A stretch of 64,000 bases of DNA from Sandarakinorhabdus glacialis (GTDB lineage Bacteria > Pseudomonadota > Alphaproteobacteria > Sphingomonadales > Sphingomonadaceae). Below, piece after piece: positions 19,133 to 22,661 of this stretch; position 1 is the first letter of the stretch; each line of letters starts with the position of its first letter. Where the stretch lies: assembly GCF_014643455.1 (NCBI RefSeq), contig NZ_BMJM01000002.1, positions 310,406 to 374,405 of the forward strand. The letters are read 5' to 3'. The notes under the pieces are model-generated. The model was not told the origin of the DNA. It made no database searches and worked only from the letters and a program-made list of their open reading frames with translations. Made by a program: the position numbers and the translations under genes.

Positions 19133-20119
19133 TCAGGCCGCCAGACACTCTGCAAACACTTTCGCATCGACATTCCCGCCCGACAGCACCACGATCGCCG
19201 TCTTGCCTTTCAGGTCGACAACCCCAGCCAGCGCCGCCGCCAGCGCCACCGCGCCACCGGGCTCGACCACGAGCTTCAGTTCCCGAAACGCAAACGCCAC
19301 AGCGCGCGCCACCTCGGCCTCGGTCACCACACCTGCGACGGCATGATTGGCGCGCAGCGTCGCGAACGTCAGCTCCGACATCCGCAGCGTCTGCAGCGCG
19401 TCGCACCGCGTCGGCTGGGGGTCGCTGACCGGCACGATGACCCCGCCCGCCAGGCTGCGCCCGACATCGTCCCAGTTGACCGGCTCGATCGCCACCACCG
19501 GCAGCTTCGACCCTACGGCGAATCCGCTCGACAGCCCGCCGCCGCCGCAGCAGACCAGCGCGAGATCCGCCGTGATCCCCATCGCCGCCAAATCGGCCAC
19601 CGCCTCAAATCCCGCCGTTCCCTGCCCGGCAATCACATGCCGGTCGTCGAACGGCGGCACAATCGTCGCGCCGCGCTCTGCTGCCAGCGCTGCGCCGATG
19701 GCCTCGCGCTTCTCGGTCAGCCGGTCGTAGAAGATCACCTCGGCACCATCCGCGCGCGTGCGCTCGACCTTCACCGCCGGCGCGTCGCGGGGCATGATGA
19801 TCGTGGCGCGCAGCGCGAGCAGCCGCGCCGCCAGCGCTACCCCCTGTGCGTGATTGCCCGACGAATAGGCCACCACGCCGCCGGCCCGATCGGCCTCGGG
19901 TATCACCGCCAAACGATTGTAGGCACCGCGAAACTTGAACGATCCGGTGCGCTGCAAACACTCCGGCTTGAGAAAAATTCGCCCACCGACCGCGGAGTCG
20001 AGCGCCGCGCTGGTTAGCAGCGGTGTATGAAAAACAATCCCGGCGAGGCGTTCGGCCGCTGTCACGACTTCGTCATAAACCACCACCGAAGTCATTGAAA
20101 AAGCGCCCTCATCCGACAT
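19133..20119 (-). CDS. PLP-dependent threonine/serine dehydratase-like enzyme
   Basis: A 328-aa fold-type II PLP enzyme. The cofactor lysine is Lys62 in GSFKFRGAYN, the substrate loop is SSGNHAQG, and the phosphate-binding loop is CGGGGLSSG. The length fits catabolic threonine ammonia-lyase or serine racemase/dehydratase; there is no C-terminal ACT domain as in biosynthetic IlvA. GTG/ATG choice: ATG 20119 is preferred because AGGAG lies 8 bases upstream; ATG 20095 has none. Exact substrate (threonine, serine, hydroxyaspartate) cannot be told from sequence alone. Confidence 0.88.
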   Translation of the reverse strand: MSDEGAFSMTSVVVYDEVVTAAERLAGIVFHTPLLTSAALDSAVGGRIFLKPECLQRTGSFKFRGAYNRLAVIPEADRAGGVVAYSSGNHAQGVALAARLLALRATIIMPRDAPAVKVERTRADGAEVIFYDRLTEKREAIGAALAAERGATIVPPFDDRHVIAGQGTAGFEAVADLAAMGITADLALVCCGGGGLSSGFAVGSKLPVVAIEPVNWDDVGRSLAGGVIVPVSDPQPTRCDALQTLRMSELTFATLRANHAVAGVVTEAEVARAVAFAFRELKLVVEPGGAVALAAALAGVVDLKGKTAIVVLSGGNVDAKVFAECLAA

Positions 20120-20178
20120 GCGTCAAGCTCCTGAAACCGTAGGGAAATATTGCAAAAAATCTTGTCATAAAAAACTTC

Positions 20179-20207
20179 TTTACATAGGGGGTCAGCGACC
20201 CTAGATA
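20179..20207 (+). promoter_or_regulatory. Candidate promoter of the ornithine decarboxylase leader
   Basis: TTTACA (20179-20184), a 17-base spacer and TAGATA (20202-20207). Transcription would begin near 20214, giving an untranslated leader of about 85 bases. Confidence 0.6.
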
Positions 20208-20223
20208 CGCCCTCCGCTGCCCC

Positions 20224-20298
20224 ATGGGACTTCCACCGCAAGGCAGTTTTGTTGGTTACGCAAGTAACCGCTCTTTGCCCACCCGGAGGTCCCTTGAA
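20224..20298 (+). ncRNA. speF-like leader RNA of the ornithine decarboxylase gene
   Basis: GGGACTTCC (20226-20234) pairs with GGAGGTCCC (20285-20293) with one G-U pair, and so buries the ribosome site GGAGGT. Inside lie GGC/GCC (20242-20244 with 20277-20279) and a perfect hairpin GGTTAC-GCAA-GTAACC (20254-20269). Position before an alphaproteobacterial ornithine decarboxylase, layout and sequence fit the published speF RNA motif as I remember it. It should control translation start. The ligand is not known to me; a polyamine or ornithine is a guess. Confidence 0.78.
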
Positions 20299-21495
20299 TT
20301 GCAAGAAAACCATAACGCGCTGGGGGTAGCGACCGGCCACAAGCCGACGCAACCTGTCACCCTTGTACGCCCTCACGCCGCGCATCGCGCTGCCCGTTAC
20401 TTCCTCGAGAAGTTTCCGGGTACGTCGATGTATGCCGTGAAGGCCAATCCTTCGCCGGACTTGATCCGTGCGTTGTGGGATGCCGGTATCACCCATTTCG
20501 ACGTCGCCTCGATCGCCGAGGTTCGCCTCGTCCGCGGTTTGCTGCCCACGGCCGTGCTGTGCTTCATGCACCCGGTCAAGGGCCAGGAAGCCATTGCCGA
20601 AGCCTATCACGATCACGACGTCCGCACTTTCAGCCTCGATTCGCTGACCGAGCTCGCCAAGATCGTCGATGCGACGTCCACGGATGACGTCGCTGCTGCC
20701 GACCTGACGCTGTGCGTCCGGCTGCGCGTCTCGTCGGCGCATTCCAAGCTCAGTCTGGCCTCCAAGTTCGGCATCGCCGCCGATGAATCCGCCGAATTGC
20801 TGATGGCCACCCGCCAGGCTGCCGATGCGCTCGGGATCTGCTTCCACGTCGGTTCGCAGGCGATGAGCCCACAGGCCTATGCCGAAGCGCTTGCCCAGGT
20901 CCGCACCGCGATTGTCGGCGCCGGCGTCACCGTCGATGTCGTCGATGTCGGCGGCGGCTTCCCGTCGATTTACCCCGGCATGGAGCCGACCGCGCTCGAT
21001 GGATATTTCGAAGTCATCCACCGCGCCTACGAAGCCTTGCCGATCAGCTATTCGGCCGAATTGTGGTGCGAGCCCGGCCGCGCGCTATCGGCGGAATATG
21101 CCAGCGTGCTGGTCCGCGTCGAAGCCCGCAAGGACGACATTCTCTACATCAACGACGGTGCCTATGGCTCGTTGTTCGATGCAGCGCATGTTGCCTGGCG
21201 CTTTCCCGTCGCCATGGTTCGCGAAATCCCTTCGCGCGCCCGCACGATGGAGTTCAGCTTCTACGGCCCGACCTGCGACGACATGGATTTCATGCGCGGA
21301 CCCTTCGAACTGCCCGCGGATATCCAGGCCGGCGACTATATCGAAGTCGGCATGCTCGGCGCCTATGGCTCGGCAATGCGCACCGGTTTCAACGGCTTCA
21401 CCGCCGGCGCGACCGTCATCGCCCGTGACGAGCCGATGGACTCGGCTTATGGTGTCGTCGAAACGTCACCATCGAAGGTTATCAGCATCCGCTAA
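20299..21495 (+). CDS. Ornithine decarboxylase (PLP, alanine-racemase fold)
   Basis: A 398-aa enzyme that turns ornithine into putrescine; some relatives also use lysine. The PLP lysine is Lys48 in MYAVKANP, the phosphate loop GGGFPSIYPG follows, CEPGRALSAEY is the next conserved block, and the active-site Cys326 lies in YGPTCDDMDF. I place the start at TTG 20299, 8 bases after GGAGGT. Then the protein opens MQENHNALGVATGHKPTQPV, as in relatives. The earlier in-frame ATG at 20224 lies inside the leader RNA and has no ribosome site. Confidence 0.93.
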   Translation: MQENHNALGVATGHKPTQPVTLVRPHAAHRAARYFLEKFPGTSMYAVKANPSPDLIRALWDAGITHFDVASIAEVRLVRGLLPTAVLCFMHPVKGQEAIAEAYHDHDVRTFSLDSLTELAKIVDATSTDDVAAADLTLCVRLRVSSAHSKLSLASKFGIAADESAELLMATRQAADALGICFHVGSQAMSPQAYAEALAQVRTAIVGAGVTVDVVDVGGGFPSIYPGMEPTALDGYFEVIHRAYEALPISYSAELWCEPGRALSAEYASVLVRVEARKDDILYINDGAYGSLFDAAHVAWRFPVAMVREIPSRARTMEFSFYGPTCDDMDFMRGPFELPADIQAGDYIEVGMLGAYGSAMRTGFNGFTAGATVIARDEPMDSAYGVVETSPSKVISIR

Positions 21496-21611: not shown

Positions 21612-22661
21612 ATGTCCGAACAGATCAACGACACCCGCAAGGCCGAGCTTCTCGCCAACGAAGTCAAGCACATCGACATCACCAGCTTCGACGCGCGCCC
21701 GATCATCGACCAGATGGGCGGCATGAGCTTCACCTCGCGTGATCTCGCCCGCGCCACGCGCATCTACAACATGATGCTCGAGGACAAGGACTGCTCGATC
21801 TTCCTCGTCATCGCCGGCTCGACCAGCGCCGGCGGCTGCATGGACCTTTATGCCGAGTTGCTCCGCAACAACATGATCGACGGCATCGTCGCCACTGGCG
21901 CAACGATCGTCGACATGGATTTCTTCGAAGGCCTTGGCCACAAGCACTATCAGGCGCTTGAAATCCCGAACGATAATGAACTTCGCTCGCTTTATATCGA
22001 TCGCATCTACGACACCTATATCGACGAAACCAAGCTCCAGGATTGCGACCACACGATCTTCGAGATCGCCAACAGCCTCGAGCCCCGACCGTACTCGTCG
22101 CGCGCCTTCATCCGCGAGATGGGCAAGTATCTTGTCGAGCACGGCAAGAAGGACAACAGCCTCGTCAAGCTCGCCTATGAGCATAACGTGCCGATCTTCT
22201 GCCCGGCCTTCGTCGATTCATCGGCCGGCTTCGGCCTGGTCAAGCACCAGGTCGAAAACGCCAAGGCAGGCAAGCCGTACATGGTGCTCGATGCCATCGC
22301 CGACTTCCGCGAACTCACCGACATCAAAATTGCAGCCGGCACCACCGGGCTGCTCATGATCGGCGGCGGCGTTCCCAAGAACTTCATCCAGGACACCGTC
22401 GTTTGCGCTGAAATCCTCGGCCATGAAGACGTCGCGATGCACAAATACGCCGTACAGATCACCGTCGCCGACGTCCGCGACGGTGCCTGCTCGTCGTCGA
22501 CCCTCCAGGAAGCCGCCAGCTGGGGCAAGGTCCAGACCACCCAAGAGCAGATGGTCTTCGCCGAAGCCGGTTCGGTCATGCCGCTCCTCGCCAGCGATGC
22601 CTATCACCGCGGCCATTGGAAGACCCGCACCAAGCGCTCGTTTGCCAAGATGTTCGTCTGA
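21612..22661 (+). CDS. Deoxyhypusine-synthase-like polyamine enzyme
   Basis: A 349-aa NAD-dependent enzyme of the deoxyhypusine synthase family. The reactive lysine is Lys306 in EAASWGKVQ. NAD contacts include VIAGSTSAGG and TGATIVDMDFFEGLGHKHYQ (20 residues). Bacteria lack the eIF5A substrate. Bacterial members are known as homospermidine synthases, and related ones are annotated 1,9-bis(guanidino)-5-aza-nonane synthase. Putrescine from the gene before makes homospermidine the likely product. ATG 21612 has GGAG 6 bases upstream. It is followed by a hairpin at 22666-22695. Confidence 0.9.
   Translation: MSEQINDTRKAELLANEVKHIDITSFDARPIIDQMGGMSFTSRDLARATRIYNMMLEDKDCSIFLVIAGSTSAGGCMDLYAELLRNNMIDGIVATGATIVDMDFFEGLGHKHYQALEIPNDNELRSLYIDRIYDTYIDETKLQDCDHTIFEIANSLEPRPYSSRAFIREMGKYLVEHGKKDNSLVKLAYEHNVPIFCPAFVDSSAGFGLVKHQVENAKAGKPYMVLDAIADFRELTDIKIAAGTTGLLMIGGGVPKNFIQDTVVCAEILGHEDVAMHKYAVQITVADVRDGACSSSTLQEAASWGKVQTTQEQMVFAEAGSVMPLLASDAYHRGHWKTRTKRSFAKMFV

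Follow-up and report, generated by a model that had tools for sequence, protein, structure and literature searches.

The locus raises the question of what kind of RNA precedes the ornithine decarboxylase (ODC)-type gene of Sandarakinorhabdus glacialis and how this RNA may act on the gene. The window analyzed here is the whole 64-kb stretch of contig NZ_BMJM01000002.1 (64,000 nucleotides). Its first-pass annotation had proposed a speF-like leader that would serve as an RNA switch on polyamine synthesis. Of this proposal, a structured cis-acting leader over the ribosome site, with translational control as its most likely function, was retained, while membership in the speF family was not.

Genomic context of the leader

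The regulated gene (20299-21495, + strand) was found to be read from a TTG start codon (20299-20301) to a stop codon at 21493-21495, in the frame first assigned to it, and encodes an ODC-type protein of 398 amino acids with Pfam domains PF02784 and PF00278, the two domains of the ornithine/diaminopimelate/arginine decarboxylase fold. No substrate-specific NCBIfam decarboxylase model scored above its cut-off for this protein; thus, ornithine is a likely, but not a proven, substrate. A sigma-70-type promoter, already noted in the earlier annotation, was read from the sequence at 20179-20207 (+ strand), with a -35 hexamer TTTACA (20179-20184), a 17-base spacer and a -10 hexamer TAGATA (20202-20207). 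A -10-like TA hexamer recurs 12 to 16 bases upstream of the pseudoknot 5' strand described below in the leaders of 97 of 123 relatives, and TTTACA lies further upstream in 71. Transcription is predicted to start at about 20213-20215, a few bases ahead of the element.

The next gene downstream (21612-22661, + strand) is of the deoxyhypusine-synthase type (PF01916), and its product matched NCBIfam NF002699, named 1,9-bis(guanidino)-5-aza-nonane synthase, at 557.8 bits (cut-off 500). The two genes are probably carried on one transcript, and the NCBIfam name hints that the operon may yield homospermidine or a guanidino-polyamine. A neighbor of this type was present at 71 of 80 named loci (mostly Sphingomonas) compared to 5 of 20 loci picked mostly for divergence; because so few divergent loci carry it, the neighbor is not tied to the motif and was rejected as a pointer to a common ligand. 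The window also holds a serC leader (RF00517; 61919-61971, + strand; 44 bits, cut-off 35), an ordinary known leader of alphaproteobacteria.

The leader folds as a pseudoknot over the ribosome site

A long stem, P1, is formed by CA(U)GGGACUUCC (20223-20234) and GGAGGUCCC(U)UG (20285-20296) on the + strand, and its 3' strand includes GGAGGU (20285-20290), the ribosome site, together with most of the first start codon. The core of this stem, GGGACTTCC (20226-20234) with GGAGGTCCC (20285-20293), had been pointed out in the first reading and contains eight Watson-Crick pairs and one U-G pair; past a U-U mismatch, P1 is extended by C20223-G20296 and A20224-U20295. To this reading we added a pseudoknot stem, S1, in which the 5' strand GCUGCC (20216-20221, + strand) pairs with GGCAGU (20242-20247, + strand), as well as a second start codon, TTG 20294-20296, and its upstream open reading frame (uORF). 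Between the P1 5' strand and the S1 3' strand lies the loop ACCGCAA (20235-20241, + strand), which is near-invariant in the alignment and variant list. The S1 3' strand is followed by a variable linker (20248-20284, + strand) that contains a hairpin, GGTTAC-GCAA-GTAACC (20254-20269). This GCAA-capped hairpin had been noted in the first reading and is present, but it sits in the non-conserved linker and was rejected as the functional core, as it is not conserved among relatives.

The two TTG start codons (20294-20296 and 20299-20301) are five bases apart, separated by AA, and lie in different frames. The first opens the uORF (20294-20329, + strand), which consists of 11 codons (MNCKKTITRWG), ends at TAG 20327-20329 and overlaps the ODC gene. 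Fold energy was compared to that of shuffled sequences and gave z scores of -3.05 for 20214-20298 and -4.13 for 20222-20296, with none of 200 shuffles folding as well. Taken together with its conservation in the family, these results confirmed the leader as a real structured RNA element, pseudoknotted and folding over the ribosome site and start codons of the ODC gene.

The leader matches the odc1 motif and not speF

The speF assignment was examined by a covariance-model search with Rfam RF00518, the check set out in the first-pass annotation. By this approach, the 64-kb window contained no match at the gathering score (37 bits) and the region 19900-20700 none even at E values of up to 10; elsewhere in the genome, only chance-level matches (10.8 bits) were detected. 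The model itself performed on other genomes, with three above the cut-off among 142 other alphaproteobacterial genomes. In all three of these (L034, L035, L036), a match to the ar45 sRNA (RF02347) was observed on the same strand, ending 7 to 8 bases before the speF match, and one transcript may comprise both ar45 and the 5' portion of the speF leader. The published speF leader is much longer and has a different consensus sequence and structure, with over 150 bases between the end of its modelled, conserved part and the start codon (Corbino et al. 2005, PMC1273637). Thus, although speF likewise heads an ODC gene in alphaproteobacteria and its published role is also that of serving ODC, the chance that the present leader is a divergent member of the speF family is negligible. 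No family of Rfam 15 matched this leader.

By contrast, the leader agrees with odc1 (uORF-25-1), a motif described from 272 alphaproteobacterial examples, Sphingomonas included (Brewer et al. 2021 RNA Biol, PMC8632094). The text of that report describes a P1 stem that includes the ribosome site, a pseudoknot of the 5' end with the loop, a UUG start codon for ODC, a further UUG two bases upstream and a uORF of 11 residues. Each feature was found here: P1 with the ribosome site in its 3' strand, the S1 pseudoknot with the P1 loop, the main UUG at 20299 with the other UUG two bases upstream, an 11-residue uORF of constant length (in the window and in 138 of 140 distinct relatives), and an ODC gene (PF02784/PF00278) directly downstream. 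Since all features stated in the text of PMC8632094 are present, the comparison being by these features and not base by base, the leader is very probably an odc1-motif translational control element, a grading that does not extend to any ligand.

Nothing in the window copy contradicts the motif as described in that text. In the wider sample, rare uORF exceptions were observed (9 codons in two leaders, another start spacing in one and no stop in one), the uORF peptides were far more numerous than the published 'highly conserved' logo suggests, and a third pairing, P3, was detected that is absent from the text description of the motif. In having one stem and a pseudoknot just after the transcription start, the leader resembles SAM-II (metA) and other small pseudoknot riboswitches; it differs from them in sequence and in the placement of the ribosome site and decoy start inside the fold.

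The element is distributed throughout the family of the window

BLASTN with the leader detected it in 75 of 99 genomes of the window's family. A covariance model built from 29 close leaders matched 205 of 296 genomes of the order, with all matches listed belonging to the same family, and among 385 genomes drawn from the class it matched five, again all of this family. When filters were relaxed for 40 family genomes with weak or missed matches, 32 matched at E ≤ 0.01 and 36 at E ≤ 1, while 20 genomes of the order's other families gave one match only, at the chance level of E = 0.49. Named carriers were mostly Sphingomonas, with Hephaestia, Stakelama and Sphingosinicella in addition; the Sphingomonas echinoides copy of PMC8632094 is not among the 80 named loci. 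A plasmid search returned a single match.

An ODC orthologue was located downstream at 145 of 146 parsed loci, and a fixed in-frame double start was found at 143, a spacing that is partly by construction because the parsing pattern demanded two bases between the starts. One locus (L117) has one base fewer between the starts, and another (L150) has a degraded P1 and no uORF stop at the usual place, as read from its sequence. Four named loci were missed by the leader pattern: three from Sphingosinicella with GCAGCC/GGCTGC, which the pattern disallowed, and one with a disrupted 5' strand.

Pairing of the pseudoknot covaries

P1 was conserved across the family, as was a block of about 35 bases at the 5' end. 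In the 29 close leaders, P1 was 99.7% paired and the two stems together 99.8%, with almost no sequence change. A set of 127 leaders revealed 10 cells of double change in S1, or nine if the one from a leader parsed out of register is set aside, compared to a mean of 0.8 and a maximum of 4 in 1000 shuffles, which do not correct for relatedness among the leaders. The changes included U-A to A-U, U-A to C-G, C-G to U-A at two different pairs, and G-C to U-G, and the S1 5' strand changed at least 10 times on the ODC tree. P1 displays little covariation because it is nearly invariant; the position of its U-U mismatch is occupied by a standard pair (A-U, G-U, U-A or U-G) in 49 of 123 relatives. Comparison of these sequences thus supports the S1 pseudoknot by covariation, which would be an addition to the published motif.

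The linker varies from 14 to 86 bases (37 in the window) and is not conserved in sequence. In the parsed set, members of the window's own genus (L064, L065, L059) have linkers of 84 to 86 bases, with extra sequence between the pseudoknot and the P1 3' strand. In several divergent odc1 leaders (L070, L071, L076, L077, L151-L153), a small hairpin (e.g., CCCCUG...CAGGGG) is inserted between the S1 5' strand and P1; it shares bases of its 3' strand with the 5' strand of P1, and the hairpin and P1 may compete.

The position of the uORF stop is maintained independently of the peptide

The uORF was exactly 11 codons long in 138 of 140 distinct leaders, and the other two end two codons earlier but retain the later stop. 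A stop codon at this position was thus present in all 140 distinct leaders with the usual start spacing, whereas the ODC amino acids and synonymous codon usage predict 12.4; the leaders are related and do not represent 140 independent events. On the ODC tree, we counted at least 7 changes of the uORF stop codon and at least 14 of the ODC codon at this position, none of which removed the stop. By contrast, at least 47 changes were counted in the last three uORF residues, and 103 different peptides were counted in the 140 leaders, with no common sequence beyond the residues forced by the start codons and no conserved arrest sequence. Use of the same codon among leaders exceeded expectation at ODC codons 1-2 and 8-10 and, mildly, at 5-6; it was close to expectation at 3-4 and below it at 7. 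These patterns support strong selection on the stop position, and the simplest reading is that selection would act on where the uORF ends and not on its peptide.

A candidate long-range pairing is limited to one lineage

In the window, the 5' strand CGCUGCCCC (20215-20223) can also pair with GGGGGUAGCG (20322-20331) in the coding region, within a candidate partner CGCUGGGGGUAGCG at 20318-20331 (+ strand). The minimum energy was -46.9 kcal/mol for 118 bases compared to -33.7 for the first 100. As modelled, this P3 pairing would exclude the pseudoknot and keep P1. Pairing of the 5' strand with ODC codons 7-11 is possible in roughly half of the leaders. Against synonymous reshuffles, the mean z was -2.8 in 60 leaders with TGGGG, a group defined by the partner sequence itself, while no signal was detected in the other 67 of 127 leaders (mean z +0.55). 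P3 was therefore rejected as a universal feature and is limited to a clade, and it is a candidate only, because it is confounded with the Trp-Gly-stop codons of the uORF. The published reporter extended through ODC codon 8 (PMC8632094) and, from what its text describes, appears to omit most of the P3 partner.

Discussion

Translation control by hiding of the ribosome site and choice between two starts is the most likely role of the leader. According to the text of PMC8632094, E. coli reporters with the Sphingomonas echinoides copy used both UUG codons, with roughly threefold higher use of the uORF start than of the ODC start, and expression in the ODC frame was abolished by changes at conserved bases, two of three such mutations sparing the uORF frame. 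Because these mutations lowered ODC-frame expression, hiding of the ribosome site would be insufficient alone, and because expression was lowered and not raised, the pseudoknot or loop probably favors the ODC frame. The same text describes modest reporter expression with a growth-medium effect only, and no ligand for odc1; regulation as such is thus still a proposal.

The sequence and its comparison with relatives support an arrangement in which the 5' end pairs into the loop as a pseudoknot, P1 covers the ribosome site and first UUG, and two starts in different frames share one ribosome site. With P1 closed, neither start would be used well; with P1 open, the shape of the RNA would pick the decoy uORF frame or the ODC frame, and polyamine synthesis would go down or up. 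The candidate triggers are small molecules of the ornithine/polyamine pathway, proteins, and ribosomes that occupy the uORF stop. A metabolite is our first guess, one slightly more apt to fail than to hold.

The speF genes of E. coli and Salmonella have a leader peptide, SpeFL, that itself acts as the sensor, with ribosomes stalling on it in response to ornithine or a polyamine. The odc1 uORF likewise is a short frame upstream of an ODC gene, and its overlap with ODC, its fixed stop and the above-expectation same-codon use at ODC codons 8-10, immediately ahead of this stop, would suit an arrest peptide on which ornithine or a polyamine stalls the ribosome and so opens or blocks the ODC start. 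The odc1 frame differs in overlapping the gene's own start and in its free peptide sequence: the diversity of peptides, the many changes in the last three residues, the lack of a shared arrest sequence and the length of only 11 residues make this explanation improbable. A passive structure, in which the stem simply limits ODC translation (or serves as a thermometer or a site for a protein) without small-molecule sensing, is a less improbable alternative, if still a doubtful one. It is consistent with the modest reporter changes and lack of a reported odc1 ligand in the text of PMC8632094, and with the failure of six pathway compounds to bind speF RNA (Corbino et al. 2005, PMC1273637), but the near-invariant ACCGCAA loop and covarying pseudoknot exceed the needs of a passive stem, and loop-side mutations affected the two frames differently in the published reporters (as described in the text of PMC8632094).

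Conservation of the leader could also reflect protein coding, with ODC beginning at the in-frame ATG 20224, from which the frame is open into the gene, and the conserved region serving as an N-terminal extension. This explanation is refuted, with next to no probability left to it, because one- and two-base indels in relatives, which fall within the G run, ahead of the CCGCAA loop and within the linker, destroy the frame; in addition, TTG or ATG is kept at the position of 20299, and the text of PMC8632094 describes use of the start there in a relative.

Within the preferred reading of odc1 as a start-codon switch, we tentatively suggest, as a possibility that may well prove wrong, that the selected property is the site at which the decoy ribosome terminates and not the peptide. 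The distance of 11 codons from the uORF start to its stop is close to the length of a ribosome, and in one large clade the P3 partner would be covered by a ribosome at this stop, so that decoy translation, pseudoknot and long-range pairing would form one bistable circuit.

Across an entire bacterial family, odc1 is an orphan control element for the committed step of polyamine synthesis. New here are the covariation of the pseudoknot, a uORF stop kept independently of the peptide and a possible coding-region partner that is apparently missing from the only published reporter, and together these make the mechanism testable.
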